Of a stretch of 64,000 bases of DNA, positions 21,912 through 47,046 are shown piece by piece (positions within the stretch are counted from its first letter, which is position 1; every line of letters starts with the position of its first letter). The notes beneath the pieces were generated by a model that worked only from the letters and a program-made list of their open reading frames with translations, was not told the origin of the DNA and ran no database searches. Source of the stretch: Nevskia sp. (lineage in GTDB: Bacteria > Pseudomonadota > Gammaproteobacteria > Nevskiales > Nevskiaceae); NCBI RefSeq assembly GCF_021732705.1, contig NZ_JAKFUM010000003.1:310001-374000 (forward strand), given 5' to 3'. Position numbers and translations under genes: made by a program.

Positions 21912-22150
21912 GAGCCCAACTCCTGAGAATCGAGTTGGCTGCATGGTCCTGTTCGTCCCCGCGCTCCTCCAGCAAGAATGCGAAAGTGGGAAGCTCCGCG
22001 TTCCGATGTACCACTTGATGTACCGCTTTGTACCGGCAGTCAGTGGTTTTCGCTGGCAGTCACTGGATTCAACGATGGCGAAAAAGCTGAACCGTGACAA
22101 TCACTTGCGACACTCCATGGTCTTTTCTGGAAGTCCGTGGAAAGTCGAAG

Positions 22151-31241: not shown

Positions 31242-31367
31242 GGCGGTCGGGCCGATGAACGAGATGTGCCGACTTTACGCAAGCGCCGCGGCATCGTCAG
31301 GTGGTCCGCCTCAGCCACTACAATCGCGCCTCGCCGACACGACCGCCCTCCGGATTCCCGACGCCCC

Positions 31368-32402
31368 ATGCCCGCCGCTTCCCGCACCGCTGCATCCACG
31401 CCCAACGCCGCGCGCGGCACGGCGCTCGTCACCGGTGCCACCGGCTTCGTCGGCTCCGCGGTCGCCCGTCGCCTGCTGGCGGAAGGCTATGCGCTGCGGC
31501 TGCTGAGCCGCCCGAGTTCGGATCGCCGCAATCTGGCCGGGCTGGAGGCGACGGTGGTCGAAGGCGATCTGACCGATCCGGCATCGCTGGCGCGCGCGGT
31601 CGCGGGCTGCGATGCGGTGTTCCATGTCGCCGCCGACTACCGGCTGTGGGCGCCGAATCCGGACGAGCTGTATCGCTCGAATGTCGACGGCTCGCGGGCG
31701 CTGGTCGCGGCGGCGCACGCGGCCGGTGTCGCGCGCATCGTCTACACGTCCAGCGTCGCCGTGCTCGGCATTCCGAAGGATGGCCGGCCCGGCGACGAGC
31801 GCACGCCGGTGACCGTCGCCGACATGATCGGCCACTACAAGCGTTCGAAGTTCCTCGCCGAGGAAGCGGTGCGCGAGCTGGCGGACAAGGGCGCACCGGT
31901 GGTCATCGTCAACCCGTCGACACCGATCGGCCCGCGCGATGTGAAGCCGACGCCGACCGGCCGCGTCGTACGCGATGCCGCCAGCGGCAGGATGCCGGCG
32001 TTCGTCGATACCGGCCTGAACGTCGCGCACGTCGACGACGTGGCCGCAGGACACTGGTTGGCGTTCGAGCGCGGCCAGTTGGGCGAGCGCTACGTGCTCG
32101 GCGGCGAGGATATGACCCTGCGCCAGATTCTCGAAACCATCGCCGACATCACCGGCCGCCGCGCGCCGACGATCCGCCTGCCGCATGCCGCGGTGATGCC
32201 GGTGGCCTACGCCGCCGAAGCGCTGGCGCGCGTCACCGGCCGCGCGCCGGTGGCCACGGTCGAGGAAATCCGCATGTCGAAGAAGCGGATGTTCTTCAGC
32301 TGCGCGAAGGCGAAGCGCGAACTCGGCTACGCGCCGCGCCCGGCCCGAGCCGCGCTGGAAGACGCGGTGATCTGGTTCCGCGACAACGGCTACCTGCGCT
32401 GA
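31368..32402 (+). CDS. hpnA: Hopanoid-associated sugar epimerase HpnA
   Basis: The 344-residue extended short-chain dehydrogenase has the Rossmann motif VTGATGFVGSAVARRLL (about 21-37), the YxxxK catalytic pair in HYKRSK (about 163-168), NPSTPIGPRDVKPTPTG typical of HpnA, and a C-terminal substrate region. It probably acts on a hopanoid-linked or nucleotide sugar; its exact reaction is not established. ATG 31368 gives the family start. It converges on hpnL, 10 bp away. Confidence 0.9.
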   Translation: MPAASRTAASTPNAARGTALVTGATGFVGSAVARRLLAEGYALRLLSRPSSDRRNLAGLEATVVEGDLTDPASLARAVAGCDAVFHVAADYRLWAPNPDELYRSNVDGSRALVAAAHAAGVARIVYTSSVAVLGIPKDGRPGDERTPVTVADMIGHYKRSKFLAEEAVRELADKGAPVVIVNPSTPIGPRDVKPTPTGRVVRDAASGRMPAFVDTGLNVAHVDDVAAGHWLAFERGQLGERYVLGGEDMTLRQILETIADITGRRAPTIRLPHAAVMPVAYAAEALARVTGRAPVATVEEIRMSKKRMFFSCAKAKRELGYAPRPARAALEDAVIWFRDNGYLR

Positions 32403-32412
32403 CGCAAAACGC

Positions 32413-33396
32413 TCATCGCGCGGCGAGGCGCCGCGCCTCCAGCCACTGCCACGACAGCAGCGCCGGCGCGCCGAAGCCGAGCTCGCGCAGCCGCCGCGCC
32501 AGCGACAGCGCCACGGCCACCTCCGGCGGCAGGCCGACCAGCCGGCCGAAAACGACGAAGCTCGCTTCCTGCACGCCGAGCCCGCCGGGCACGAAGAACG
32601 CGAAGTGGCGCACCGCCAGGGTCAGGCTTTCGATCGCCAGTGCCGCGCCGACGCTGATTTCGTGGCCGAGCAGCTTCAGCGCCAGCCAGGTCTCGAACGC
32701 GCCGACCAGCATGCCGGCGAGCTGCCACAGCAGCGCCTGGGTCAGCACGGCGTAACGCGCGCTCAAGGCGCGGATTTCGGCATCGAGCATCGCGGCATCA
32801 CCGAGCAATGCGGAGAGGCGGCTGTCCGGCCCCAGCATCGCGATCAGGCCGCGCTCGACCTTCGCGAACAGCGCGCCACGCCGCAGCAGCAGATACAGCC
32901 CGACCGGCACCGGCAGCGACACCAGAAGCCCGAGCGCCAGCGAGCCGAGCAGGCTGTGATCCTGCGTCGCCGCCAGCAGCAGCACCAGACCGAGCGCGGT
33001 GAACAGGTACTGATTCACGAGCGTCAGCAGCACCTCGACGATCACGCTCGCCGCTACCGCCGGCCCCGGCAGCGGCCGCAGCAGCGCCAGCCGGATGCCG
33101 ACCAGCTCGCCACCGATGCTGGCCAGCGGCAGCAGGCGGCTGACCGCCTCGCGCACGGTGGCGATCCACCACAGCCATGGCAAGGTCGCGACCCGCGCCG
33201 GATCGCGCGGCCGCAGCAACTGGCGCCAGCCTTCGGCATCGAGCAGCAGCGGCAGCGCGTGGAACGGGATCAGCCACAGCAGCGGCCAGCCGGCGTGGTC
33301 GAGCAGGTTCGCGATCGCGCCGAGGTCGTTCGTGGCCACCAGCGCCACGAGCAGGCCGAAGCCGAGCAGGGCGGCGATCAACGGCCCGGCTTTCAT
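32413..33396 (-). CDS. hpnL: HpnL, UPF0104-type membrane protein
   Basis: This 327-residue integral membrane protein has about seven or eight hydrophobic helices, from LIAALLGFGLLVALVATND at the start to LAVRHFAFFVPGGLGVQE near residue 270. The latter is the signature of the lysylphosphatidylglycerol-synthase transmembrane/UPF0104 family. It is the last gene of an hpnI-J-K-L operon; HpnL is thought to help move or place hopanoids but has no proven activity. ATG 33396 overlaps the hpnK stop (ATGA). Confidence 0.88.
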   Translation of the reverse strand: MKAGPLIAALLGFGLLVALVATNDLGAIANLLDHAGWPLLWLIPFHALPLLLDAEGWRQLLRPRDPARVATLPWLWWIATVREAVSRLLPLASIGGELVGIRLALLRPLPGPAVAASVIVEVLLTLVNQYLFTALGLVLLLAATQDHSLLGSLALGLLVSLPVPVGLYLLLRRGALFAKVERGLIAMLGPDSRLSALLGDAAMLDAEIRALSARYAVLTQALLWQLAGMLVGAFETWLALKLLGHEISVGAALAIESLTLAVRHFAFFVPGGLGVQEASFVVFGRLVGLPPEVAVALSLARRLRELGFGAPALLSWQWLEARRLAAR

Positions 33397-34214
33397 CGGG
33401 CCGATGCGGCGGTCCGCTCGAAATCGACCCAGCGCCCCAGCACCGCGCCGCGCGCCGTGATCGCCGCACGCACGCGGGGCGACAGCAGCGCGGCCAGCTC
33501 GTCGTCGTGGCGGTAGGTCGGCATCGTCGGGGTCAGGCCGCGGTGCGTGGCGGGGTGCAGGTACAGCTCGGTCAGCCCGTCCGGCAAGGTCTCGATCGCG
33601 CGCAGCACGGCCATTTCGTCCATCGCGCCGCTCGCGGCGAGGCCGTGGATGCGGTCGTTGTGGCGCACGCCGGCACGATGCAGGCGGCGTTGCATCAGGG
33701 CGAGCCAAGGCTTCAGCAGCGGCGCGGTACCGGGTTCGCGCGGCAGGCGCACCGCGCGCAGGCCGTGCTCGCGGCCGATGTCGAGCAGCAGGCCGAGCAC
33801 CGTCGGGTGCAGGTGGAAATGCTTGTGCGCGTTGACGTGGTCAAGCCGCAGGCCGGTGGCGCTGAAGGCCTCGAACTGCGCGCGGATCTCGCGTTCGAGC
33901 TGGCGGCGGACCTGCGGCAGAAAGAAGAAGCGGAAGCCATCGCGCGCCATGCGATCGCCGAAGCGGCCGTGATCGTCGACCAAATCCGGAATCTCGCGTT
34001 TCGGCAGCACGGCCGGGCCATCGGCCAGCACCAGATGCAGGCCGACACCGAGCGTCGGCAGCCGCCGGGCGCGGGCGACGGCATCGGCCGCCGCAGGTGC
34101 GCCGACCATCAGGCTCGCGGTGGTCAGCACGCCGTCGACATGGGCGCGCTCGACCGCATCGTTCACCGCGACATCGAGGCCGAAGTCGTCGGCGTTGATG
34201 ATCAGCCGGCGCAT
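33393..34214 (-). CDS. hpnK: Hopanoid deacetylase HpnK (YdjC fold)
   Basis: A 273-residue YdjC-like carbohydrate deacetylase. Metal ligands are seen in INADDFGLD (about 6-14), VGLHLVLADG (about 57-66) and DHVNAHKHFHLHP (about 124-136). In bacteriohopanetetrol cyclitol ether synthesis, HpnK removes the acetyl group from the N-acetylglucosaminyl hopanoid made by HpnI, giving the substrate of HpnJ. It is transcribed after hpnJ and overlaps hpnL by 4 bases. Confidence 0.9.
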   Translation of the reverse strand: MRRLIINADDFGLDVAVNDAVERAHVDGVLTTASLMVGAPAAADAVARARRLPTLGVGLHLVLADGPAVLPKREIPDLVDDHGRFGDRMARDGFRFFFLPQVRRQLEREIRAQFEAFSATGLRLDHVNAHKHFHLHPTVLGLLLDIGREHGLRAVRLPREPGTAPLLKPWLALMQRRLHRAGVRHNDRIHGLAASGAMDEMAVLRAIETLPDGLTELYLHPATHRGLTPTMPTYRHDDELAALLSPRVRAAITARGAVLGRWVDFERTAASAR

Positions 34215-34280
34215 CGCGGCGCGGTCGCGGATCGAGCAGCGGTCACTCCGGAGGAGTCCGGACCAGCGGCGCGAGGCGCT

Positions 34281-35750
34281 TCAGGCTTCGCGCGCACGCA
34301 GGAACCGGAAGAACTCCACGCCTTCGCGCAGGCGGCGCTTCATCATGTCCCAGTCGCTGAGCATTTCGCGGACGATTTCCCAGATCTTGCTCGGCCGGAA
34401 GTAGAAGCGGCGGTAGAACACTTCCATCGAGTGGAAGATCTCGTCCTTCGACAGATGCGGATAGCTGATCGCAGCCAATTGCACGCCCTTGTCGTTGACC
34501 AGATTCACCGCGTCGTTTTCCTGCAGCCAGCCGTTGTCGACCGCCTGCTTGTACAGGGTTGTGCCCGGATACGGCGCGGCGAGGCTGACCTGGATCGTGT
34601 GCGGATTGATCTCCTTCGCGAACTCGATCGATTTCTCGATCGTTGCCAGCGTCTCGCCCGGCAGGCCGAGGATGAACGTGCCGTGGATCTTGATGCCGAG
34701 CTTGTGGCAGTCGGCATTGAAGCGCCGCGCGATGTCGGTCTTCAGGCCTTTCTTGATGTTGTGCAGGATCTGGTCATCGCCGGATTCGTAGCCGACCAGC
34801 AGCAGGCGCAGGCCGTTGTCACGCATGATCTTCAGCGATTCGTACGGCACGTTGGCCTTCGCGTTGCAGCTCCAGGTCCAGCCGAGCTTGCCCAGGCCCT
34901 TCGCGATCTCGTGCACGCGATCCATGTTCGACGAGTCGGTGAAGGTGTCGTCGTCGAACATCAGCTCCTTGACCTCGGGCATGTTGTCCTTGATCCACTT
35001 CGCTTCGGCGATGACGTTCGCCGCCGAGCGCACCCGGTAGCGATGCCCGCCGACCGTCTGCGGCCACAGGCAGAACGTGCATTTCGAGCGGCAGCCGCGG
35101 CCGGTGTACAGCGACACGTACGGGTAGTTCAGATAGCCGATGAAGTAATTCTTGATCGTCAGATCGCGCTGGTACACCGGGGCCACGAACGGCAGCGCGT
35201 CCATGTCCTCGATCGTGGCGCGCGGCGCGTTGTGCTTGATCGTGCCGTCCGGCAGGCGATAGCTGATACCGGTGATGTCGGCCCACGGCCTGTCGTTCGC
35301 GGCCAGTTCGGCGCAGGTGTAGTCGAACTCCTCGCGGGCCACGAAATCGATCGCGTGCGATGCCTTCAGCGAGCCGGCGGGATCGACCGCGACCTTCGCG
35401 CCGACCATGCCGATGACGATGTCCGGCCGCTGCGCCTTCAGCAGTTCGGCGAACTTGGCGTCGGTCGGGAACGAGGGGGTCGACGTGTGCAGGATCACCA
35501 GCGCGTAGTCGGCGGCGATCGCCAGCGTCTGCTCGACCGTCAGCTCGTCGGCCGGGGCATCGACCACGCGGCTGCCGGGCACCAGGGCAGCGGGCTGCGC
35601 CAGCCAGGTCGGGTACCAGAAGCTCTTGATCTCGCGCTTGGCCTGATAGCGGCTGCCGGCGCCGCCGTCGAAACCATCGAACGACGGGGCCTGCAGGAAC
35701 AGGGTCTTCAGCGGGTTCTGCCGCGCTGGTGGTGTATTCGCAGCATCCAT
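34281..35750 (-). CDS. hpnJ: Radical SAM protein HpnJ (hopanoid cyclitol ether formation)
   Basis: The protein has 489 residues, with an N-terminal B12-binding-like domain (about 1-180) and a radical SAM domain with the cluster motif CRSKCTFC (about 208-215). FLQAPSFDGFDGGAGSRYQA near the start is characteristic of HpnJ. It contracts the glucosamine ring of the hopanoid side chain to the cyclitol ether. ATG 35750 is the family start; the frame is open upstream. hpnK and hpnL follow and hpnI precedes it. Confidence 0.92.
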   Translation of the reverse strand: MDAANTPPARQNPLKTLFLQAPSFDGFDGGAGSRYQAKREIKSFWYPTWLAQPAALVPGSRVVDAPADELTVEQTLAIAADYALVILHTSTPSFPTDAKFAELLKAQRPDIVIGMVGAKVAVDPAGSLKASHAIDFVAREEFDYTCAELAANDRPWADITGISYRLPDGTIKHNAPRATIEDMDALPFVAPVYQRDLTIKNYFIGYLNYPYVSLYTGRGCRSKCTFCLWPQTVGGHRYRVRSAANVIAEAKWIKDNMPEVKELMFDDDTFTDSSNMDRVHEIAKGLGKLGWTWSCNAKANVPYESLKIMRDNGLRLLLVGYESGDDQILHNIKKGLKTDIARRFNADCHKLGIKIHGTFILGLPGETLATIEKSIEFAKEINPHTIQVSLAAPYPGTTLYKQAVDNGWLQENDAVNLVNDKGVQLAAISYPHLSKDEIFHSMEVFYRRFYFRPSKIWEIVREMLSDWDMMKRRLREGVEFFRFLRAREA

Positions 35751-35767
35751 GTTTCGAACAGTCTCAC

Positions 35768-37000
35768 TCAGGTCGAAGGGCGATTCGCTCGCCGGGCAAT
35801 CTTCATCGGGCGACCCCGCCAGCGCACCACGCGACCGGCCAGACCGATCACCCAGAGCCCCAGCGCGAGGCCGTCGCGCAGCGGCACGAGCAGCGTACTG
35901 GTCAACAGATTCTTCAACAAATCCAGAGACATCGCGTTTTCGCTGCGCTGCACAACCGCGAGCCAATCTAGCACGAGGCGAGCGCCGATCGAGACGCCGA
36001 CCGCAGTCAGGATCAGGCCATCCATCCCACCATTGCCGCCATTCCCGGTCAGCGCCGCCGCGCCGCTCAGAACGGCGACCGGCACCGGGAAGCAGATGAA
36101 GGCGAAGGCGTAGCTCAGCGGCGTGATCGTGCGGATCGAGCGTAGCCAGCGCAGTTCGCGCGCGGCGAGATCGCTGAGCCGGGTCTCGGTCACGTCGGTG
36201 ATCACCTGCGCTTCCGACAGCACGGTGCGGCGTCCGGTTCGCCGCGTGAGTTCGCCGAGCCAGTAATCGTCGGCGACGTGGTGGGCGATCTGGCCGAAGC
36301 CGCCGATGCCGTCCAGCGTGTCGCGACGCAGCGCGATGGTGGCGCCGAACGCGAAGTTCGTGGACCCGAGCAGCCGCGCGAAGCAGACCGAGGGCGCGAA
36401 CCAGTCGTCGATGAACTGCACGCCGAGCCGTGCCCAGAAGCCGCCGTCACGCGTCTCGCCCGTCGCTGGCGTCGACCGGCCGACGGCCCGGCCGCGATAC
36501 AGGCAGGTGACGACGCCGACCGCGTCATCGGCCAGCGGTGCAGTGACCCGGCGCAGCAGGTCGGGTGGCGCCTCGATGTCGCTGTCGGCCAGCAGCAGCC
36601 AGTCGTGGCGGGCGTGCGGCATCAGGTTCATCAGGTTCGAGACCTTGAGATTGATGCCGTGCACCGCCGGGTCGACGACGATGCCGATGTCGCGTTCGGG
36701 AAACTCGGCGCGCAGGCGCTCGGCCACGGCCAGCGCTTCGTCATCGCTCGCATGCAGGCCGAACAGCACCTGAAACTCCGGATGGTCCTGCGTGCAGAAA
36801 CTGCGCAGGTTCTGGTACAGCCGGGGCTCGCTGCCGAACAGCGGCTTCAGCACGGTGACCGGGCGCGCGACTGCCGGCGGCGGCACGCGCGCAGCCTTCG
36901 CCGTCCACCAGAGGCGGGCGATCAGGGTCAGCAGGATCGAGACCAGGCAGGCCAGCAGCACGGCGAGGCCAAGTGCCGGCACGAACGGGAAAACGGACAC
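35768..37000 (-). CDS. hpnI: Hopanoid glycosyltransferase HpnI
   Basis: A membrane-anchored family 2 glycosyltransferase with an N-terminal transmembrane helix (LGLAVLLACLVSILLTLIA), a catalytic domain with PVTVLKPLFGSEPRLYQNL and the metal motif LLADSDIEAPPDLL, then a QxxRW-like LRWLRSIRTI and C-terminal membrane helices. It adds N-acetylglucosamine to bacteriohopanetetrol. The start is uncertain: GTG 37000 (410 residues) is chosen by family length, but GTG 37087 is also in frame. It heads the hpnIJKL operon. Confidence 0.87.
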   Translation of the reverse strand: MSVFPFVPALGLAVLLACLVSILLTLIARLWWTAKAARVPPPAVARPVTVLKPLFGSEPRLYQNLRSFCTQDHPEFQVLFGLHASDDEALAVAERLRAEFPERDIGIVVDPAVHGINLKVSNLMNLMPHARHDWLLLADSDIEAPPDLLRRVTAPLADDAVGVVTCLYRGRAVGRSTPATGETRDGGFWARLGVQFIDDWFAPSVCFARLLGSTNFAFGATIALRRDTLDGIGGFGQIAHHVADDYWLGELTRRTGRRTVLSEAQVITDVTETRLSDLAARELRWLRSIRTITPLSYAFAFICFPVPVAVLSGAAALTGNGGNGGMDGLILTAVGVSIGARLVLDWLAVVQRSENAMSLDLLKNLLTSTLLVPLRDGLALGLWVIGLAGRVVRWRGRPMKIARRANRPST

Positions 37001-37152
37001 GGAGGCTGAGCGGGCCTTGGAAGATGGATCGTCTGATGCCGCAGGATGGTAGCGGCGTTGCAGCGCGGCCGTCGGGACGTGCGTCACGGCGCTGCTTTGT
37101 GTACGGTTCCGGGCAGGCTTGAGACGGGATTCGAAGGCATGCGGGAAGTCCG

Positions 37153-37659
37153 ATGAAGCGGGGTCTGTCGCTGCAGCTGGGCGGGCTGGCGCTGGCCATC
37201 GCGATGATCCCGGCGGCGATGGCCGACGCGCGGATCTGGCCGGAAGACGCGATCGTCGGGCGCTGGCTGATTGCCTCGCGCGACGCGGTGATCGACATCC
37301 ATCCCGCCCGCGACGGCGGCGGCGAATATCACGGCTCGATCGCCTGGCTGCTGGACAAGACCTACAAGGCGGAAGACGGTCCGGAGCGCGCCGGCAAGCC
37401 GCTGCTCGACGACCGCAACCCGGACCCGACGCTGCGCAGCCGGCCGTTGATCGGCCTGCCGATGCTGACCGGGCTTAAGTTCGATGGTCGCGATCACTGG
37501 CGCGACGGTCGCGTCTACAGCTCGAACGATGGCCGCACCTACACGGTGCAGGTGTCGCTGGCCGATACCGAGCATCTGAAGCTGCGCGGCTATTTCGGCA
37601 TTCCGCTGCTCGGCCTGACCTCGGTCTGGACACGGGTGCAGACGCTGCCGAACCCCTGA
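37153..37659 (+). CDS. Exported DUF2147 protein
   Basis: This 168-residue protein has a signal peptide (LSLQLGGLALAIAMIPAAMA) and a DUF2147 lipocalin-like domain. It begins IVGRWLIASRDAVIDIHPA and ends with YTVQVSLADTEHLKLRGYFG and LGLTSVWTRV, the usual pattern of the family. Its role is unknown. It stands between the hopanoid operon and the mevalonate genes, divergent from hpnI. Confidence 0.85.
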   Translation: MKRGLSLQLGGLALAIAMIPAAMADARIWPEDAIVGRWLIASRDAVIDIHPARDGGGEYHGSIAWLLDKTYKAEDGPERAGKPLLDDRNPDPTLRSRPLIGLPMLTGLKFDGRDHWRDGRVYSSNDGRTYTVQVSLADTEHLKLRGYFGIPLLGLTSVWTRVQTLPNP

Positions 37660-37967
37660 TCACGGCGGTGCCGGCCCGCCGGTCCCCCGGAATATCCGGG
37701 CGGCCGGCGAAAGGGGATGGCGCTGGAGTCGCCAGAAGTCCGCTGGCAACGAACTGCGAGCCAAAACCCGGCAAAATGGCGCGAAAATCGCAGCTTTTGA
37801 CGGACGATGGACGGATATGGGAGGTCCCATATTCGTTCTTGGTGTAAGGGTCTTGTAAACTTGGGCCTTGAAACCGTCATCTTTGACCCATTTCCGTGCG
37901 CGCCGCCGCCATCGTTCGAGCGACGCATGCCTCCTCCGTCCGCTGTATTTTCCTCCGTGCACCATTT
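37660..37967. other. 308-bp promoter region of the mevalonate operon
   Basis: The stretch contains a GC-rich hairpin-prone start, then an AT-richer part with the dyad at 37815-37832. In-frame codons extend mvaD upstream to 37896, but without family similarity. The promoter of the mevalonate genes is probably here. Confidence 0.4.
37815..37832. promoter_or_regulatory. Dyad ATATGGGA-GG-TCCCATAT
   Basis: Two perfect 8-base arms face each other across GG, about 135 bp before the mvaD start. It is the only strong dyad in this promoter region, so it is a candidate operator for the isoprenoid genes. Confidence 0.4.
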
Positions 37968-39020
37968 ATGAGCGTGATGTCCAGAACGCTTGATTCCGAC
38001 CGTTCCCCCGGCGCGCCGAACGACCGCGTGGCGGCCGCGCAGGCACAGCCGAACATCGCGCTGATCAAGTACTGGGGCAAGCGCGACGTGGCGCTGAACC
38101 TGCCGGTGGTCGGTTCGCTGTCGATCACGCTCGACACGCTCTGGACGCGCACCGAAGTGCGTTTCAGCGACGCGCTCGACGCCGATTCGATAGTGCTGAA
38201 CGGCAAGTCCGACCCGAAGCAGCTGAAGCGCACCAGCGCCTGTCTCGACCTGTTGCGCGCGCGTGCCGGCATCAGGACCCGCGCCGCCGTGGTCAGCACC
38301 AACAACTTCCCGACCGGCGCCGGGCTCGCGTCCTCGGCCTCCGGCTTCGCCGCGATGGTGCTCGCCGGCGATGCCGCGCTGGGCCTGAACCTGACGCCGG
38401 CCGAGCAGTCGGTGCTGGCGCGGCGCTGCTCCGGTTCCGCCGCGCGTTCGATCTTCGGCGGCTATGTCGAATGGGCGCACGGCAGCCGCGCCGATGGCGA
38501 AGATTCGGTCGCCACGCCGCTGCTGCCGGCCGACGCCTGGCCGCTCAGTGTCGCCGTCGCGATCACCTCGACCGCCGAAAAGGCGATCGGCTCGACCGAG
38601 GGCATGAACCGCACGGCCGATACCAGCCCGTACCAGGACGCCTGGATCGACAGCCAGGAGGCCGATCTCGCCGAAGCCCGCGCCGCGATCGCCGAGCGCG
38701 ATTTCGAGCGGCTGGCCGACATTTCCGAACACAGCTGCCTGAAGATGCACGCGCTGGCGCTCGCCGCGAAGCCGGGCCTGCTGTACTGGAACGCCGCGAC
38801 CGTCGCCGCGATGCACGTCGTGCGCAGCCTGCGCGCGCAGGGCGTGCCGGTGTTCTTCACGATCGACGCCGGCCCGCAATTGAAGGCGGTCTGCCTGCCG
38901 TCGGCAGCGAGCCGCGTGGCCGCCGCGCTGCGCGAAGTGCCGGGCGTGCTGAACGTGGTCGAAACCGGCCTCGGGGGGCCGGCGCATCTGATCCCGACCG
39001 CGGCGGCCGCTGCGGCATGA
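37968..39020 (+). CDS. mvaD: Diphosphomevalonate decarboxylase
   Basis: The 350-residue GHMP-fold enzyme makes isopentenyl diphosphate from mevalonate 5-diphosphate. It has AQAQPNIALIKYWGKRD (about 24-40, with the diphosphomevalonate-binding Tyr-Trp-Gly-Lys), LPVVGSLSITLD, NFPTGAGLASSASGFAAM (ATP loop) and the catalytic Asp in FFTIDAGPQLKAV. It is the first gene of the mevalonate operon. ATG 37968 or 37977 are equally possible starts. Confidence 0.94.
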   Translation: MSVMSRTLDSDRSPGAPNDRVAAAQAQPNIALIKYWGKRDVALNLPVVGSLSITLDTLWTRTEVRFSDALDADSIVLNGKSDPKQLKRTSACLDLLRARAGIRTRAAVVSTNNFPTGAGLASSASGFAAMVLAGDAALGLNLTPAEQSVLARRCSGSAARSIFGGYVEWAHGSRADGEDSVATPLLPADAWPLSVAVAITSTAEKAIGSTEGMNRTADTSPYQDAWIDSQEADLAEARAAIAERDFERLADISEHSCLKMHALALAAKPGLLYWNAATVAAMHVVRSLRAQGVPVFFTIDAGPQLKAVCLPSAASRVAAALREVPGVLNVVETGLGGPAHLIPTAAAAAA

Positions 39021-39027
39021 GCCGCTC

Positions 39028-40113
39028 GTGAACATCATTGCGTCCGCTCCCGGCAAGCTGGTGCTGCTTGGCGAGTACGCGGTGCTGGAAGGCGCGCCGG
39101 CCATTTCGATGGCCGTGAACCGCCGCGCGAAGGCGCGCATCGCGCCGCGCGCCGGTGCCGTCAGCGAGGCCTACGCGCCCGACGTGCTCGATGCCCGCGT
39201 GCCGTTCACGCTCGGCGCCAACGGCCTGCCGGACTGGTCCGCCGCTGCCGGCGATGCCGCCAAGCTCGGTCTGGTCGACGAAGTGCTGCGCGGGCTGGCC
39301 GACGAACAGCTGGGCCCGGATGCGGCGCAGGCATTCGGCCTGTCGCTCGATACCTCCGAATTTTTCGATGTCGCCGCGGCCGATCGTCCGAAGCTCGGAC
39401 TCGGGTCGAGTGCCGCGCTGACCGTGGCGCTGGCCTCGGGGCTGGCCGCGCGCGCGGGCCATGCCGCGGAAACCGCGGACCGTGACGCCTGGCTGACGCG
39501 CCTGCTCGGCCTGCATCGCAAGTTCCAGGGCGGGCATGGCAGCGGTGTCGATGTCGCCACGAGCCTCGTGGGCGGTGTCATCGCCTACCAGCTGTTCGAT
39601 GGCGGCCAGCGGCCGCAGGCGCGCGCGCTGGCCTGGCCAGGCACGCTGCACAAGCGTTTCGTCTGGTCCGGCTGCTCGGCATCGACGCCGAAGTTCCTGT
39701 CGATCCTGCGCGCGTGGCGGGCGACACACGAAGCCGAATACACGCGTCGGATGAACGGCCTGCACGAGACCGCAACCGCCGCGGTCGAAGCGCTGGCGAG
39801 CGCCGATGCCGCCGCGTTTCTCGACTGTGCCCGCCGCTATGCCGGCGATCTGCGTGCGCTCGGCGACGCCAGCGGCGTCAGCATCTATTCGGCCGAGCAT
39901 CTGGCGATCGCCGAACTGGCGCAGCGTCAGGCCGGCGTGGTCTACAAGCCTTGTGGTGCCGGCGGCGGTGATGTCGGCGTGTTGTTTGCAACAGACCCCG
40001 ACCGACTCGCGGCGCTCGATGCGCCGCTGGCGGCAGCCGGGTTTTCCTGCGTGGCCCTGACGGTAGATCCGAGCGGCCTGCAGCTGGAGTTCATGGAGAG
40101 CAACGAAGCATGA
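39028..40113 (+). CDS. mvaK2: Phosphomevalonate kinase
   Basis: This 361-residue GHMP kinase starts at GTG 39028 with NIIASAPGKLVLLGEYAVLE, the phosphomevalonate kinase form of motif 1. Further motifs are KLGLGSSAALTVALASG (about 122-138), GGHGSGVDVATSLVGGVI (about 168-185) and KPCGAGGGDVGVLF (motif 3). It phosphorylates mevalonate 5-phosphate, supplying MvaD. Its stop overlaps the next start (ATGA at 40110), so translation of the reductase-kinase fusion is coupled to it. Confidence 0.92.
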   Translation: MNIIASAPGKLVLLGEYAVLEGAPAISMAVNRRAKARIAPRAGAVSEAYAPDVLDARVPFTLGANGLPDWSAAAGDAAKLGLVDEVLRGLADEQLGPDAAQAFGLSLDTSEFFDVAAADRPKLGLGSSAALTVALASGLAARAGHAAETADRDAWLTRLLGLHRKFQGGHGSGVDVATSLVGGVIAYQLFDGGQRPQARALAWPGTLHKRFVWSGCSASTPKFLSILRAWRATHEAEYTRRMNGLHETATAAVEALASADAAAFLDCARRYAGDLRALGDASGVSIYSAEHLAIAELAQRQAGVVYKPCGAGGGDVGVLFATDPDRLAALDAPLAAAGFSCVALTVDPSGLQLEFMESNEA

Positions 40114-42425
40114 GTGCCGATCAACAGGTTCAGGGCGCAGCCGACGCGGCCGCCATCGACAGATCGCGGTTCCCGGAGTTCTACAAGCTGTCGCCGACCG
40201 ACCGCGTGCGGCTGATGCGCGAGCGCGGCTGGCTGTCCGAAGCCGACTACCAGCAGATGATCTCGGGCGAGCACACCTTGTCGCTGCACCGCGCCGACAA
40301 GATGATCGAGAACGTCGTCGGCGTGATGGGCCTGCCGGTCGGCCTCGGTCTGAACTTCCTGATCAACGGCAAGGACTACGTGATTCCGCTGGTGGTCGAG
40401 GAGCCGTCGATCGTCGCCGCGCTGTCGAGCGCCGCGAAGATCGTCCGCGGTGCCGGCGGCTTCACCGCCGAGATGGACGAGTCGATGCTGATCGGCCAGA
40501 TCCAGGTCGTCGACATTCCGAACGTGCCGCGTGCGCAGTCGGCACTGCTGCAGCGCAAGGCCGAGCTGCTGAATCTCGCGAATTCGCTGCACCCGCAGAT
40601 GGTCGCGCGGGGCGGCGGTGCCCGCGATGTCGAAATCCATCTGCATCCGCGGCCGGATGGCCACGGCGACATGATGATCGTGCATCTGGTCGTCGATACC
40701 TGTGACGCGATGGGCGCCAATCTGGTCAACACGATGTGCGAAGGCCTGGCCTCGCTGGTCGAGTCGATCACCGGCGGCAAGGTGTTCCTGCGCATCCTGT
40801 CGAACCTGACCGACCGCGCGCTGGTCCGTGCCAAGTGCGTGATCCCGGTCGACAAGCTCGCCGGCAAGGGGTTTTCGGGCGAGGAAGTGCGCGACGGCAT
40901 CGTGCTGGCCACCGATTTCGCGAGCGTCGACCCGTATCGCGCCGCGACCCACAACAAGGGCGTGATGAACGGTGTCGATGCCGTGGCACTGGCCACCGGC
41001 AACGACTGGCGCGCAATCGAGGCCGGTGCCCACGCCTATGCCTCGCGCTCGGGCCGGTACACCTCGCTGACGCGCTGGTACAAGGGCCCGAACGGCGAAC
41101 TGGTCGGCGAGATCGAGATTCCGATGAAGGTCGGCACCGTCGGCGGCCCGCTGCAGTCGAACCCGACCGTGGCGCTGAACCATCGCCTGCTCGGCGCGAC
41201 CTCGGCCCGGGAACTGGCGATGGTCATGGGCACGGTCGGTCTGGCCCAGAACTTCTCGGCGATCCGGGCGCTGGCGACCGAAGGCATCCAGCAGGGTCAC
41301 ATGACCCTGCATGCGCGCTCGGTGGCGCTGGCGGCCGGTGCCTCGCCGGACATCTTCGAGACCGTGGTCGAGCGCCTGATCGAAGGCGGCGACATCAAGA
41401 TCTGGAAGGCGCAGGAAATCGTCGTGCAGGTGCGCAAGGCCGCGCGCCACGAAGCCGGCGAACCGGAAACGCCGTCGAACGCACCGCGCGCGCAGGGCCA
41501 CGGCAAGATCATCCTGCTCGGCGAGCATGCGGTGGTCTACGGCAGCCATGCGATCGCCGCGCCGGTGCCGCTGGCGATCGAGGCCAGCGTGCAGGACGGC
41601 GACGGCAGCACGCGCAATCCGGGGGTCGACCTGATCATTCCGCGCTGGGGTGTCGAATCCCGGCTGCACAAGGATCCGGCGCACCGCGACTCGTTCCAGC
41701 GCAGCCTCGGCATCGTCTTCGACAAGCTTGGCCTGACCGAGAAAAGCTTGCGCATCGAAGTGTTCCCGAACGTGCCGCGCGGCATGGGCCTCGGTGGCTC
41801 GGCGGCGATGGCGGTCGCGGTGATCCGCGCGATCGACCAGCACTTCAAGCTCGGCCACACCGACGAAGAGATCAACGCGCTGGCCTTCGAATGCGAGAAG
41901 GTCGCGCACGGCACGCCGAGCGGCATCGACAACACGGTGGCGACCTACGGCCAGCCGCTGCTGTATCGCCGCGCGCATGAAGGCAAGCCGCTGAAGATGG
42001 AGCCGCTGAAGCTGTCGAAGCCGATTCCGCTGGTCGTCGGCATTTCCGGCAAGGAAAGCCTGACCGCGAAGACCGTGGGCGGCGTGCGCACGGCCTGGCA
42101 GAAGAACCCGGAGCTGTACGAGAACATCTTCCGGCAGATCGATGCGCTGACCTTGCAGGGCGTCGATGCGATCCAGAATTACCAGCTCGAGCGGCTGGGC
42201 GATCTGATGAATGTCTGCCACGGCCTGCTTAATGCGCTGCGCGTGTCGAGCTGGGAAATCGAGGAAATGGTGCAGATCTGCCGCGAGCAGGGCGCCATCG
42301 GCGCCAAGCTGACCGGCGGCGGCGGTGGCGGTTCGATCATCGCGCTGGCGCCGGAACATCCGGAACGGGTGATCGCGGCCCTGCGCGATGCCGGCTACTC
42401 CGGCATGGAGGTGCGCATTGGGTGA
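40110..42425 (+). CDS. HMG-CoA reductase-mevalonate kinase fusion protein
   Basis: A continuous 771-codon frame joins two consecutive enzymes of the pathway. Residues about 1-440 are a class II HMG-CoA reductase: SRFPEFYKLSPTDRVRLMRE, VEEPSIVAALS (catalytic Glu), DTCDAMGANLVNTM, THNKGVMNGVDAVALATGND (Lys and Asp) and QGHMTLHAR (His). After a Pro/Ala-rich linker (about 441-460), residues 461-771 are a mevalonate kinase: GKIILLGEHAVVYGSHAIA, GMGLGGSAAMAVAV, HGTPSGIDNTVATYG and KLTGGGGGGS. All key residues of both halves appear present. The fusion would make mevalonate and pass it directly to phosphorylation. No stop or frameshift separates the halves. Confidence 0.93.
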   Translation: MSADQQVQGAADAAAIDRSRFPEFYKLSPTDRVRLMRERGWLSEADYQQMISGEHTLSLHRADKMIENVVGVMGLPVGLGLNFLINGKDYVIPLVVEEPSIVAALSSAAKIVRGAGGFTAEMDESMLIGQIQVVDIPNVPRAQSALLQRKAELLNLANSLHPQMVARGGGARDVEIHLHPRPDGHGDMMIVHLVVDTCDAMGANLVNTMCEGLASLVESITGGKVFLRILSNLTDRALVRAKCVIPVDKLAGKGFSGEEVRDGIVLATDFASVDPYRAATHNKGVMNGVDAVALATGNDWRAIEAGAHAYASRSGRYTSLTRWYKGPNGELVGEIEIPMKVGTVGGPLQSNPTVALNHRLLGATSARELAMVMGTVGLAQNFSAIRALATEGIQQGHMTLHARSVALAAGASPDIFETVVERLIEGGDIKIWKAQEIVVQVRKAARHEAGEPETPSNAPRAQGHGKIILLGEHAVVYGSHAIAAPVPLAIEASVQDGDGSTRNPGVDLIIPRWGVESRLHKDPAHRDSFQRSLGIVFDKLGLTEKSLRIEVFPNVPRGMGLGGSAAMAVAVIRAIDQHFKLGHTDEEINALAFECEKVAHGTPSGIDNTVATYGQPLLYRRAHEGKPLKMEPLKLSKPIPLVVGISGKESLTAKTVGGVRTAWQKNPELYENIFRQIDALTLQGVDAIQNYQLERLGDLMNVCHGLLNALRVSSWEIEEMVQICREQGAIGAKLTGGGGGGSIIALAPEHPERVIAALRDAGYSGMEVRIG

Positions 42426-42426
42426 G

Positions 42427-43059
42427 ATGATGGCGGACCTGAATTCCCCGAAGACGGCATCCATGACGGCCCACGCCCCCGAAATTGCGCACCAGATCGT
42501 GTCGTTCGATGACGAACCGCTGATCCTGGTCGACGAGAACGACACCGAAGTCGGCTTCCTGCCGAAGGCCGAGGCCCACATGGGCGGCGGCACGCTGCAT
42601 CGCGCGTTCTCGCTGTTCGTGTTCAACAGCGATGGCGAGCTGCTGCTGCAGCAGCGCGCCGCCGGCAAGCGGCTGTGGGGCCAGTTCTGGTCCAACACCT
42701 GCTGCAGCCATCCGCGTCGCGGCGAAACGATGGACATCGCGATCCATCGCCGGCTGAAGGAAGAGCTGGGCTTCGAATGCCGCTTCGACTATCTGTTCAA
42801 GTTTCAGTATCAGGCGCAGTTCGACGCCACCGGCGCCGAGCACGAGCTGTGCTGGGTCTACGCCGGCCGCAGCGACACGCGGCCGGCCGTCAATGCCAAC
42901 GAGATTTCGGCGATCCGCTACATCGCGCCGGACGCCCTCGATGCCGAGATCGAAGCCCGTCCGGAATCGTTCACGCCGTGGTTCAAGATCGAATGGGCCC
43001 GCATCCGGGCGCAGCACGCCGGGGTCTATGCCCGGCAGACGTCGGCGTCTTTGGCATAA
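42427..43059 (+). CDS. idi: Isopentenyl-diphosphate delta-isomerase, type I
   Basis: This 210-residue Nudix-fold isomerase interconverts IPP and DMAPP. The catalytic Cys is in FWSNTCCSHPRRGE (about 92-105), with ETMDIAIHRRLKEELGFE as the modified Nudix box and the second catalytic Glu in HELCWVYAG. The N-terminus carries VDENDTEVGFLPKAEAHMG. ATG 42427 lies one base after the fusion gene stop, so it is the last gene of the mvaD-mvaK2-fusion-idi operon. It completes the mevalonate route to both C5 units. Confidence 0.93.
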   Translation: MMADLNSPKTASMTAHAPEIAHQIVSFDDEPLILVDENDTEVGFLPKAEAHMGGGTLHRAFSLFVFNSDGELLLQQRAAGKRLWGQFWSNTCCSHPRRGETMDIAIHRRLKEELGFECRFDYLFKFQYQAQFDATGAEHELCWVYAGRSDTRPAVNANEISAIRYIAPDALDAEIEARPESFTPWFKIEWARIRAQHAGVYARQTSASLA

Positions 43060-43207
43060 AATCCGCAATCCCGGTCCTATCCGGCACAGATCGTGATGCA
43101 TCACGCTGTGTGATAGGCCACGTTGCCGGCCGCGTCTCGACGTCGGCGGCAGCGTCATCGAATCAGTTTGCCGTCCCCGGCGAAGCCATCAGAGGTTTGG
43201 AGAACAC

Positions 43208-44350
43208 ATGGGCGTTCCGCTTATCCAGCAGGTCACTGTTGCTCGCTATCTTCTTACCAAGAAGCTGAAGCGCGAGAAACGTTTCCCGCTCGTGCTGATG
43301 CTGGAGCCGCTGTTCCAGTGCAATCTGGCCTGCGCCGGCTGCGGCAAGATCGACTACGAGAAGGACATCCTGCAGCAGCGCGTCAGCGTGGAGCAGGCGC
43401 TGCGGGCCGCCGAGGAATGCGGCGCGCCGATGGTCTCGATTCCGGGCGGCGAGCCGCTGATCCACAAGGAAATGCCGAAGATCGTCGCCGGTCTCGTGGA
43501 GATGAAGAAATTCGTCTACCTGTGCACCAACGCGATCCTGCTGAAGAAGCACATCCACGAGTACACGCCGAGCCCGTATCTGACGTTCTCGATCCATCTC
43601 GATGGCCTTGAAAAGCGCCACGACGAGTCGGTGTGCATGGAAGGCGTGTTCGTGAAGGCGGTCGAAGCGATCCAGCTCGCGCTGTCGAAGGGCTTCCGCG
43701 TCACCATCAACTGCACGCTGTTCTCGGGCGAAGCCCCGGAAGAGGTCGCCGACTTCTTCGATTACGCGATGAGCCTCGGCGTCGAGGGCATCACCGTGTC
43801 GCCGGGCTACAGCTACCAGCACGCGCCGCGTCAGGATGTGTTCCTCGGCCGTACCCAGTCGAAGCAGTTGTTCCGCGACGTGTTCAAGATCGGCCGCGAG
43901 CGCAAGTCGAACTGGAAGTTCAACCAGTCGCCGATGTTCCTCGACTTCATCGCCGGCAACCAGGCCTACCAGTGCGAGCCCTGGGGCACGGTGACCTACA
44001 ACGTCTTCGGCTGGCAGAAGCCGTGCTACCTGCTCGTCGACGAAGGCCATGTCAGCTCTTACAAGGAGCTGATGGAAACGACGAAGTGGGAAAACTACGG
44101 CGTCGGCCGCAACCCGAAGTGCGACAACTGCATGGCGCATTGCGGCTTTGAAGGCACGGCCGTCAACGACACGTTCTCGAACCCGCTGAAGGCCGCGAAG
44201 GTGGCCATGTTCGGCCCGGACATCGACGGCCCGATGGCGCCGGATCTGCCGATTCTCTACGGCAACCGTGCGGAAGCGGCGGCCGTGAAGATCCCGGTCA
44301 CCGCAATCAAGAAGAAAGCCAAGCCGGCCACGGAAAAGGCGGATAGCTGA
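43208..44350 (+). CDS. hpnH: Adenosyl-hopene transferase HpnH
   Basis: The 380-residue radical SAM enzyme joins the 5'-deoxyadenosyl radical to diploptene, the first step of hopanoid side-chain extension. The cluster ligands lie in LFQCNLACAGCGKIDY (about 35-50). VSIPGGEPLIHKE, YLCTNAILLKKHIH and FSIHLDGLEKRHDE follow as in HpnH, and Cys residues near the C-terminus (CDNCMAHCGFEG) may hold a further cluster. The start matches the family (MGVPLIQQ). A strong hairpin follows the gene. Confidence 0.95.
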   Translation: MGVPLIQQVTVARYLLTKKLKREKRFPLVLMLEPLFQCNLACAGCGKIDYEKDILQQRVSVEQALRAAEECGAPMVSIPGGEPLIHKEMPKIVAGLVEMKKFVYLCTNAILLKKHIHEYTPSPYLTFSIHLDGLEKRHDESVCMEGVFVKAVEAIQLALSKGFRVTINCTLFSGEAPEEVADFFDYAMSLGVEGITVSPGYSYQHAPRQDVFLGRTQSKQLFRDVFKIGRERKSNWKFNQSPMFLDFIAGNQAYQCEPWGTVTYNVFGWQKPCYLLVDEGHVSSYKELMETTKWENYGVGRNPKCDNCMAHCGFEGTAVNDTFSNPLKAAKVAMFGPDIDGPMAPDLPILYGNRAEAAAVKIPVTAIKKKAKPATEKADS

Positions 44351-44356
44351 CGCGCT

Positions 44357-44380
44357 GGCGGTGGCGTTCGCGCCACCGCC
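44357..44380 (+). terminator. Hairpin with TTCG loop between hpnH and hpnB
   Basis: GGCGGTGGCG and CGCCACCGCC form a perfect 10-bp stem closed by TTCG, 7 bp after the hpnH stop. No T-run follows, so it may stabilise or process the mRNA instead of ending it. Confidence 0.6.
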
Positions 44381-44404
44381 GGAGGCTCGGCAGTCGTCGA
44401 TCTG

Positions 44405-45529
44405 ATGGAAACCGCGTTCTGGCTGGCCGCACCCGCGGCGGTGATGTGGTTCGGACTCTGGCTGGCGCCGTGGCGTCCGTGGAGCACGCGCGAGCAGATC
44501 GAACCGACCGGTTTCGGGCACGGCGGGCATGGCGACATGAACGCCGTGACCGTGCTGATCCCGGCGCGAAACGAGGCCGAGGTCATCCAGCGGACGCTCG
44601 ACGGTCTGCAGGCGCAGAGCGAGGGCATGGCGACCGGTCTGAAGATCGTCGTGATCGACGATCAGTCCGATGACGGCACCGGCGACATCGCCCGGCGCTA
44701 TCCGAATGTCGAAGTGATCTCCGGTCAGCCGTTGCCGAAGGGCTGGGCCGGCAAGCTGTGGGCGCTGGAACAGGGCAAGGGCCGCGTGACCACGCCGATG
44801 ACCCTGCTGCTCGACGCCGACATCGCGCTGGAACCCGGTCTGCTGCCGGCGCTGCTCGCGCACAAGCGGGCGACCGGCGCGCATTTCGTCAGTCTGATGG
44901 CGGACCTGCGCCGCACCTCGTTCTGGGATCGCCTGCTGCTGCCGGCGTTCGTCTACTACTTCAAGCTGATCTACCCGTTCGCGGTGTCGAACTCGCCGTC
45001 GAAGTGGGTGGCGGCGGCGGCCGGTGGCTGCGTGCTGGTCGATACGGCCGCGCTGCACAAGGTCAACGCCTTCGAATGCCTGAAGGGTGCCCTGATCGAC
45101 GACTGCACCCTGGCCCGGCGGATCAAGGACGGCGGCCACAAGACCTGGATCGGGCTGAGTCGCGGCGTCATCTCCCTGCGGCCGTACGGCACGCTGAAGA
45201 GCGTGCACGACATGGTGGCGCGCTCGGCGTTCACGCAGCTGCGCTATTCGACGCCGCTGCTGCTCGTGGTCACCGCGCTGTTCGCGCTGGCCTACTGGCT
45301 GCCGATCGCGGCCCTGCTGCAGGGCTCGTGGCTGGCGGCTGCCGCGCTGCTGGCGATGTGTGCCGCGTATGTGCCGACGCTGCGCTACTACGGCTTGTCG
45401 CCGGTGTGGTCGCTGGCGTCGCCGCTGATCGGCGCACTGTATCTGGGCATGACCTGGAGCTCTGCCATCCGCACCTGGCGCGGCGTACGCTCCCAATGGA
45501 AAAACCGCACCTACGAAGTGGAGTCCTGA
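44405..45529 (+). CDS. hpnB: Hopene-associated glycosyltransferase HpnB
   Basis: This 374-residue family 2 glycosyltransferase with membrane segments has an N-terminal helix (FWLAAPAAVMWFGLWLAP), NAVTVLIPARNEAEVIQRTL, IVVIDDQSDDGTGDIARRY, LLLDADIALEPGLLPALLAH, and hydrophobic helices from about residue 290 (LLVVTALFALAYWLPIAALL). HpnB is found in hopanoid clusters and presumably glycosylates the side chain or a precursor; its activity is unproven. It follows hpnH in the same direction. Confidence 0.9.
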   Translation: METAFWLAAPAAVMWFGLWLAPWRPWSTREQIEPTGFGHGGHGDMNAVTVLIPARNEAEVIQRTLDGLQAQSEGMATGLKIVVIDDQSDDGTGDIARRYPNVEVISGQPLPKGWAGKLWALEQGKGRVTTPMTLLLDADIALEPGLLPALLAHKRATGAHFVSLMADLRRTSFWDRLLLPAFVYYFKLIYPFAVSNSPSKWVAAAAGGCVLVDTAALHKVNAFECLKGALIDDCTLARRIKDGGHKTWIGLSRGVISLRPYGTLKSVHDMVARSAFTQLRYSTPLLLVVTALFALAYWLPIAALLQGSWLAAAALLAMCAAYVPTLRYYGLSPVWSLASPLIGALYLGMTWSSAIRTWRGVRSQWKNRTYEVES

Positions 45530-45567
45530 GGACTCGCTGACGCAGGGCTTTCGGAATCGAGAAGACC

Positions 45568-47046
45568 ATGATGGACAACAACTCAATCGGCATCAGTGCA
45601 TTTGCGACGTCGGTCCCGCCGTATCGCGTGGATCTGCGGCAGTGGTGCGAGTGGAGCAACAACAGCTGGGACAAGACCCGCGCGGTGATCGGCGAAAGCT
45701 TCCGCGTGCCGGGTGTCGAGCAGGACGTTTACACGATGGCGGCGAATGCCGTGGTCGAACTGATCGTCCGCAATGACATCGATCCGCGCCGCATCGGCTA
45801 TCTGGCGCTCGGCACCGAATCGTCGATCGACAATGCGACCGGTGCCGTCATCGTCCGGGGGCTGGTCGATCGCGTGCTCGCCTCGCGCGGCATGGCGCGT
45901 CTCGCGCGGGACTGCGAAGTGCCGGAGTTCAAGCAGGCCTGCCTCGCCGGCGTCTACGGCCTGAAGGGCGCGCTGCGCTATCTGGCGTTCGATGGCGCCG
46001 AACGGCTGGCGATCGTGGTCGCCGCCGACATCGCCGAGTACGAGCGCGGCTCCAGCGGCGAACCGACGCAGGGTGCCGGTGCGGTCGCCATGCTGCTCGA
46101 ACGCGATCCGAAGATCCTGACTCTGGATCTGCGCGCCGCCGGCAGCGCCTCCACCTTCCGCGGCCTCGACTTCCGCAAGCCGTTCCAGCGCTTCTGCGGG
46201 CAGCAGCCGGGGCCGAGCGGCCGTCTGGCCGACTTCCCGGTGTTCAACGGCAAGTTTTCCACCGCCTGCTATGTCGACGAGACGCTGTCGGCGCTCGATC
46301 AGCTGCTGACCAAGCGCGGCGGCAGCCACAGCCGCTACTTCCACGAGATCGAAGCGGTGTTCATGCATCGCCCGTATCACAAGATGCCGGTCACGGCCTG
46401 GGCGCTCGGCTATCTGTTCGCGCTCGGCGCCGACGGTGCCGCTGGCGCCGCCGAACTCGATGGCTACTGCGCCAAGGCGGGCGTCGATCCGGTGGCACTG
46501 CACGCCGAAATGGCAACGCTGCCGACCCGCGCGTTCGAGTCGGACTTCGACGGCACGGTCGCCGAGCCGTATCCGCTGACCGCGGCACTGATGAAGTCGT
46601 TCCGCGAGGACCCGGCCTACAAGGCGGTGGTCGACGACAAGATGCGCCTCGGCTCCAAGCCGATGATGGCGATGGGCAACCTGTACTCGGCCGCGCTGCC
46701 GGCGTGGCTGGCGGCCGGGCTCGAGGAAGCGGCGAAGAGCGGCCGCGATCTGGCCGGCAAGGAAATGCTGCTGATCGGCTACGGCAGCGGCGACGCCTCC
46801 GAAGCGATTCCGGCGCGCGTGGTGCCGGGCTGGCTTGCGGCGGCGAAGCGCATCCATCTGGCCGAGGCGCTGAATCCGGTCGTTGACCTGGACAAGGAAC
46901 AGTACGAGGCGCTGCACGATGGCCTGCCGGCCCCGGGCATCACGCCGCGCGCGCCGGGCATCCGGATCACCAAGGTCGGCGATCGCCGCACCGGCGCGTT
47001 CCAGGATTACGGCATCGCGTACTACGAGTTGGGCGAACCGGTCTGA
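45568..47046 (+). CDS. mvaS: Hydroxymethylglutaryl-CoA synthase
   Basis: A 492-residue thiolase-fold enzyme that condenses acetyl-CoA and acetoacetyl-CoA to HMG-CoA, the entry to the mevalonate pathway. The acylated Cys is in EFKQACLAGVYGLKGAL (about Cys 125). The expected His is in AVFMHRPYHKMPVTAW, and LLIGYGSGDASEAIPARV is near the C-terminus. It is longer than the roughly 390 residues common in Gram-positive bacteria. It completes the pathway in this cluster; no acetoacetyl-CoA thiolase gene is nearby. Confidence 0.92.
   Translation: MMDNNSIGISAFATSVPPYRVDLRQWCEWSNNSWDKTRAVIGESFRVPGVEQDVYTMAANAVVELIVRNDIDPRRIGYLALGTESSIDNATGAVIVRGLVDRVLASRGMARLARDCEVPEFKQACLAGVYGLKGALRYLAFDGAERLAIVVAADIAEYERGSSGEPTQGAGAVAMLLERDPKILTLDLRAAGSASTFRGLDFRKPFQRFCGQQPGPSGRLADFPVFNGKFSTACYVDETLSALDQLLTKRGGSHSRYFHEIEAVFMHRPYHKMPVTAWALGYLFALGADGAAGAAELDGYCAKAGVDPVALHAEMATLPTRAFESDFDGTVAEPYPLTAALMKSFREDPAYKAVVDDKMRLGSKPMMAMGNLYSAALPAWLAAGLEEAAKSGRDLAGKEMLLIGYGSGDASEAIPARVVPGWLAAAKRIHLAEALNPVVDLDKEQYEALHDGLPAPGITPRAPGIRITKVGDRRTGAFQDYGIAYYELGEPV

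Follow-up and report, generated by a model that had tools for sequence, protein, structure and literature searches.

The 64,000-nt window analysed here (Nevskia sp., contig NZ_JAKFUM010000003.1, positions 310,001 to 374,000) carries a gene at 40110..42425 on the + strand in which a complete class II 3-hydroxy-3-methylglutaryl-CoA (HMG-CoA) reductase is followed, behind a linker of about 24 aa, by a complete mevalonate kinase. This architecture of known enzymes is real and conserved, and undescribed as far as we searched the openly licensed literature. We consider it about 87% probable that the product is a working bifunctional enzyme, probably using NADPH, that acts on the only recognised route to isopentenyl diphosphate (IPP), arose by a one-time fusion and holds its halves on a flexible tether; bifunctionality itself is very likely. 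From the sequence we infer both activities, the use of NADPH, a single origin and a benefit of the fusion.

Domains, active sites and cofactor site of the fused protein

The gene forms a single 771-aa frame that starts with ATG at 40110, ends with TGA at 42425 and contains no internal stop. Pfam identified HMG-CoA_red at residues 32-402 (368 bits), GHMP_kinases_N at residues 535-613 and GHMP_kinases_C at residues 687-763. Both enzymes also exceeded the curated NCBIfam cut-offs, TIGR00532 (reductase) matching residues 13-402 with 418.9 bits (cut-off 259.95) and TIGR00549 (mevalonate kinase) matching residues 464-746 with 238.5 bits (cut-off 163.05). These results bear out an earlier note on this DNA, which had read reductase and kinase as one polypeptide, and neither a stop nor a frameshift lies between the halves in the window. 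No thiolase domain was found among the Pfam and NCBIfam matches, so the N-terminal thiolase of MvaE-type proteins is not seen here; with a kinase behind the reductase, the protein differs in kind from the MvaE fusion, as had been proposed.

Both halves proved to be complete, as the earlier note had claimed for the kinase. The reductase part (residues ~18-447; 40161..41450, + strand) was delimited by TIGR00532, by alignment to the solved chains 6dio and 1qax and by an AlphaFold2 model. The alignment begins at residue 18 and runs to residue 443, almost to the chain ends (6dio 4-427 of 429), which indicates that the reductase part is complete, including its C-terminal flap of three helices. The kinase part (residues ~461-771; 41490..42422, + strand), delimited by TIGR00549, conservation and the model, begins at about residue 461 with what we take to be the first GHMP motif. 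Between them lies the linker proper (residues ~448-460; 41451..41489, + strand), placed by linker lengths, substitution rates and the model.

The reductase residues E98, K283, D299 and H397 align, through 1qax, with the catalytic Glu83, Lys267, Asp283 and His381 of the Pseudomonas mevalonii enzyme. In the kinase, K466, S564, E596 and D607 are presumably active-site residues, as in animal mevalonate kinase. In a 98-row alignment, which holds duplicates and the window three times (P0001, L002, L003), the four reductase residues and K466, E472, S564, E596, H600 and D607 of the kinase were invariant wherever a letter was present. PMC10070635 describes Glu83, Lys267 and the flap residue His381 of the P. 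mevalonii enzyme as catalytic. Compared with seven relatives, the ratio of nonsynonymous to synonymous substitution rates (dN/dS) was 0.10-0.27 in the reductase and 0.07-0.44 in the kinase. With active-site residues unchanged and dN/dS low, both halves look selected as enzymes. Because the single frame recurs in relatives and dN/dS stays below 0.45 in both halves, a chance arrangement is excluded.

The cofactor site was compared with that of characterised class II enzymes. According to PMC10070635, the P. mevalonii enzyme is NADH-specific and carries Asp146, Gln147, Leu148 and Leu152, whereas NADPH enzymes carry Tyr, Pro, Ser and Arg at these positions. The corresponding residues of the fusion are 161, 162, 163 and 167, and across the 98 rows we found His161 in 94, Pro162 in 94, Asn, Lys, Gln or Arg at 163 in 91 and Arg167 in 95. 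Since Pro162 and Arg167 are as in NADPH enzymes and residue 161 is His in place of Asp, NADPH appears likelier than NADH as the cofactor.

Distribution, isoprenoid route and origin

We searched 61 genomes (the organism's own and 60 relatives) and found a strong fusion match in 32, with the join itself seen in 31; close relatives thus carry the fused gene and not always two genes, and the conservation of the fusion in related genomes, which the earlier note had named as support, is confirmed. Within the genus the join was present in 16 of 18 genomes, own included, although in G006 the fusion is split across two contigs behind the join and in G001 it ends just short at a contig end. Of the other two genomes of the genus, G009 showed a reductase fragment of 96% identity that a contig end truncates, and G010 (88% complete) had no fusion match. 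Elsewhere in the family only G026 of 19 other genomes had the join, and all 14 searched genomes of a further family that includes Salinisphaera (f6) had it. The fusion frame was found in relatives down to 46% identity.

In wider searches at E 1e-100, with at most two candidates scored per genome in the class, 16 of 369 genomes of the class gave a match (9 full length, 6 lone reductases and G239, in which the end of the reductase leads into the kinase before the contig stops). At the level of the phylum, 15 of 398 genomes matched, of which the own genome and G789 were full length and 13 had the reductase only. Scanning a single genome of each species revealed at least 587 encoding relatives, and the best 80 loci were kept: 59 fused, 2 that reach the kinase before their contig stops, 12 neighbouring gene pairs and 7 reductase only, the last without a kinase match in the flanking DNA examined. 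The order reductase then kinase was identical in all 97 loci tagged fused. Fused records were assigned to Pseudomonadota, Calditrichota, Acidobacteriota, Planctomycetota and Actinomycetota. Many of these records come from metagenome bins, and their labels, such as Nakamurella for L060, may be mistaken; named strains with the fusion include Dyella monticola, Rhodanobacter lindaniclasticus, Salinisphaera halophila and Cryobacterium. Four genomes occur twice, once per collection (L010/L046, L015/L047, L024/L068 and L031/L073). That assembly or sequencing error joined two genes might be suggested by the predominance of metagenome assemblies among the records and by one relative with an in-frame stop; the same single frame recurs in dozens of separate records, named strains among them, so we rejected an artefact, which has a negligible probability.

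The methylerythritol phosphate (MEP) route was examined in the same genomes. Dxr (TIGR00243) and IspH (TIGR00216) occurred together in the same 27 of the 61 genomes and never with the fusion, and neither had a match in any of the 32 fusion-group genomes, own included. The two remaining genomes, G010 and G033 (76% complete), had no match to Dxr, IspH or the fusion. Each of the 31 mevalonate kinase matches above the cut-off in the 61 genomes lay within a fusion frame, and the fused reductase was the only PF00368 match in 20 of the 32 fusion-group genomes. These patterns suggest that the organism has the mevalonate pathway as its sole recognised route to IPP. Separately, relatives with Dxr and IspH and without the fusion (for example G018, G019 and G024) also have a PF00368 match.

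Quick trees, without an inferred root, were built from 71 of 98 fused loci, 12 gene pairs and 13 lone reductases, after 28 loci were excluded as near-copies, duplicates or partial; the count of 98 in the linker analysis exceeds the 97 tagged loci by L098, which is cut by a contig end. The results showed all 71 fused rows on one side of one branch in both the reductase tree (96 rows, support 100) and the kinase tree (83 rows, support 82). The 12 unfused pairs, from Myxococcota and Bacilli (L095, L106, L107, L110, L111, L113, L116, L117, L120, L121, L124 and L125), encode the same enzymes in the same order on one strand, but in two frames. A single fusion of neighbouring genes would explain both the grouping of fused rows and this shared order and strand, and since the fused rows form one group in the tree of either half, the most economical history is a single fusion that later spread by lateral transfer. 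In both trees the Cryobacterium rows (L087, L089, L092, L096 and L102; Actinomycetota) clustered with Salinisphaeraceae, and each of the five loci has the decarboxylase MvaD and phosphomevalonate kinase (PMK) beside the fusion, plus HMG-CoA synthase (HMGS); this grouping together with the shared genes points to a probable lateral transfer of the mevalonate cluster.

A nearly neutral join of two independent enzymes, with a gain limited to co-production and kept since splitting is rarely favoured, is a weaker though possible account. Separate adjacent genes suffice in Myxococcota and Bacilli and the linker is free to vary, as such an account would have it, but none of 25 unfused reductases (6 from the class search and 19 from the best 80 of at least 587 loci) fell inside the fused group, although unfused relatives are under-sampled. 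Secondary splits of the fusion were likewise considered, and none was seen among these thinly sampled relatives.

Linker and flap

The gap from reductase residue 438 to kinase residue 463 measures 24 aa in the window and ranges over 11-81 aa elsewhere, except in L093 and L097. The short Pro/Ala-rich linker described previously stands in part: Pro and Ala are present, but the linker sequence is not conserved among relatives. Its dN/dS was 0.34-1.55, a range taken from seven relatives and 22-24 codons only, and the AlphaFold2 model (70 sequences; mean pLDDT 84.4) showed a confidence gap at residues 447-456 and a pTM of 0.56, so the model does not fix the relative placement of the halves. The kinase is joined behind the reductase flap, modelled as three helices at residues 393-408, 416-426 and 431-448.

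These features bear on the idea of direct channelling, raised in the earlier note, in which the active sites would be placed so that mevalonate bypasses the bulk pool, with flap closure perhaps setting the timing. The two enzymes catalyse consecutive steps, their order is the same in the 97 fused loci, and the kinase is attached to a flap that, according to PMC10070635, covers the active site of the reductase once per cycle and releases the product by its movement. Against these points stand the variable length and unconserved sequence of the linker, its dN/dS compared with 0.07-0.44 in the domains, and the low linker confidence and pTM of the model, and we regard channelling as unlikely. Mevalonate is a stable molecule, so channelling is not chemically needed. 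With linker length variable, sequence unconserved, dN/dS at 0.34-1.55 and the halves not confidently placed, a loose tether is the better guess than a built channel.

We also entertain, as a long shot, that the position of the kinase on the mobile flap is functional: the opening of the flap, by which mevalonate and CoA would be released, might move the kinase and couple release to phosphorylation, or the state of the kinase might feed back on reductase turnover. If true, the protein would work as a machine of two enzymes, the second being borne on the lid of the first.

Several variants of this region were observed. Two fused proteins (L093:6001-8118 and L097:2304-4367) retain only the first helix of the flap, and about 20 aa separate it from the kinase; this recalls the short flap of class I HMG-CoA reductases. 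The Cryobacterium linkers are 33-81 aa long, and that of L096 contains a short repeat. Start codons in the linker stretch of 96 fused loci were GTG in 59, ATG in 22 and TTG in 16 (counts overlap), with none in 17; no start codon is common to the loci, and a separate kinase made from an internal start was rejected as a general feature, though it may hold in single species.

Neighbouring genes, comparison with known systems and significance

The own genome comprises 4.53 Mb in 28 contigs. In the window, the fusion is flanked on the + strand by further mevalonate genes. Diphosphomevalonate decarboxylase MvaD (37896..39020; TIGR01240, 292 bits, cut-off 171.35) has a listed GTG start that is probably too far upstream, its family match beginning at residue 47. 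A divergent PMK follows (39028..40113; best match TIGR01220, 89 bits, below the cut-off of 165.7), identified also by its conserved place beside the fusion, and its stop overlaps the fusion ATG by 4 bases. Downstream lie isopentenyl-diphosphate isomerase Idi type 1 (42427..43059, a start chosen by eye, searched from 42421; NF002995, 163.5 bits, cut-off 127; TIGR02150, 147.9 bits, cut-off 105.8), the adenosyl-hopene transferase HpnH (43208..44350; TIGR03470, 517.2 bits, cut-off 225.05), an HpnB-like glycosyltransferase (44405..45529; TIGR03469, 358.2 bits, below the cut-off of 379.25) and a divergent HMGS (45568..47046; TIGR01835, 167.2 bits, below the cut-off of 360.35, with Pfam HMG_CoA_synt_N and HMG_CoA_synt_C over cut-off). 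As these genes all lie on the + strand with short gaps, we predict that the seven, fusion included, form an operon. PMK and HMGS score well below their family cut-offs, so standard annotation may miss parts of the pathway.

Upstream, HpnI, HpnJ, HpnK and HpnL matches lie on the other strand and an HpnA match on the + strand. Across 30411-47046, HpnA, HpnL, HpnK, HpnJ and HpnI thus stand beside the mevalonate operon, with HpnH and the HpnB-like gene inside it, and precursor-supply and hopanoid genes share one locus. Among 46 of the 59 fused loci, those with more than 3 kb on both sides (from L046 to L125 only), PMK was nearby in 42, MvaD in 42, Idi in 34, HMGS in 16 and HpnH in 5. About 18 kb upstream of the fusion, an integrase-domain match was noted at 19986-22100 (NF007246, 197 bits, below the cut-off of 434).

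In the mechanism we propose, the N-terminal class II reductase would convert HMG-CoA to mevalonate, with NADPH as the most likely cofactor. The C-terminal GHMP kinase would use ATP to turn mevalonate into mevalonate 5-phosphate, after which the PMK, MvaD and Idi encoded in this predicted operon would complete IPP and dimethylallyl diphosphate (DMAPP), part of which probably goes to hopanoid synthesis. Two neighbouring co-directional genes would have been joined once, then inherited and moved between phyla, leaving the kinase hung from the end of the mobile flap by a flexible, unconserved tether. The likely gains are a fixed 1:1 dosage and nearness of the two enzymes, and the ATP-driven kinase step may pull the reversible reductase step forward and limit mevalonate loss. 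That the reductase half instead runs backwards in mevalonate breakdown is highly improbable: the 'degradative' label of TIGR00532 and the lone class II-like reductases in 13 of 398 phylum genomes would fit it, while the surrounding gene set is biosynthetic, Dxr and IspH are without a match in the fusion-group genomes, the kinase is on the same chain and the cofactor site is NADPH-like.

Several findings weigh against the interpretation of the protein as a bifunctional biosynthetic enzyme of single origin. The family matched by its reductase half is named 'degradative'; residue 161 is His, neither the Asp of the NADH enzyme nor the Tyr of known NADPH enzymes; and the kinase half usually has R660, with 9 of 98 rows differing. 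L016 (genome G003, 84% complete) has an in-frame TAG within the reductase half. The kinase tree contains four long-branch rows (L110, L117, L103 and L113) and has a support of only 82, and both PMK and HMGS fall below curated cut-offs. Additionally, 12 of the 32 fusion-group genomes have a further PF00368 match, whole or in pieces. In the own genome it lies at C22:21613-22716 (L142:7602-8813, - strand), gives no match with the class II query and is presumably class I by its motifs; no mevalonate gene was recognised by eye beside it. With this second reductase present, the fused one need not be the organism's only source of mevalonate.

Known systems resemble the fusion in part. MvaE of Enterococcus faecalis, a natural fusion of acetoacetyl-CoA thiolase and HMG-CoA reductase (PMC10070635), likewise joins two mevalonate-pathway enzymes including a class II reductase, but there the thiolase is N-terminal and the reductase flap is the C-terminus, whereas here the next enzyme stands behind the flap. 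The reductases 1qax (P. mevalonii) and 6dio, which share flap and catalytic residues with the window protein over nearly their full length, are single enzymes, and the mevalonate kinases 2hfs, 2x7i and 4hac are complete GHMP kinases, as here, but unfused. IspDF, which is common in bacteria and likewise fuses two enzymes of isoprenoid-precursor synthesis (PMC13001223), joins other proteins at non-consecutive MEP steps, in contrast to the consecutive mevalonate steps joined here. The 28 distinct matching sequences in the PDB each covered one half only, with no solved chain spanning both, and no mention of a reductase-mevalonate kinase fusion was found in the openly licensed literature searched, including passages of PMC13001223, PMC9997736, PMC9803151, PMC10663253, PMC4092121, PMC13412983 and PMC10070635. 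Both results agree with the earlier remark that the fusion is not a characterised protein.

The fusion is a widely kept, natural link between the reductase and the pathway's first kinase, in bacteria that apparently use mevalonate instead of the MEP route. We suggest that the 'degradative' family label misnames these proteins, and pathway surveys should seek both enzymes within one gene. The fusion also supplies ready-to-use parts for engineering isoprenoid synthesis, and it is a test case for how HMG-CoA reductase behaves with a large partner joined to its catalytic flap.

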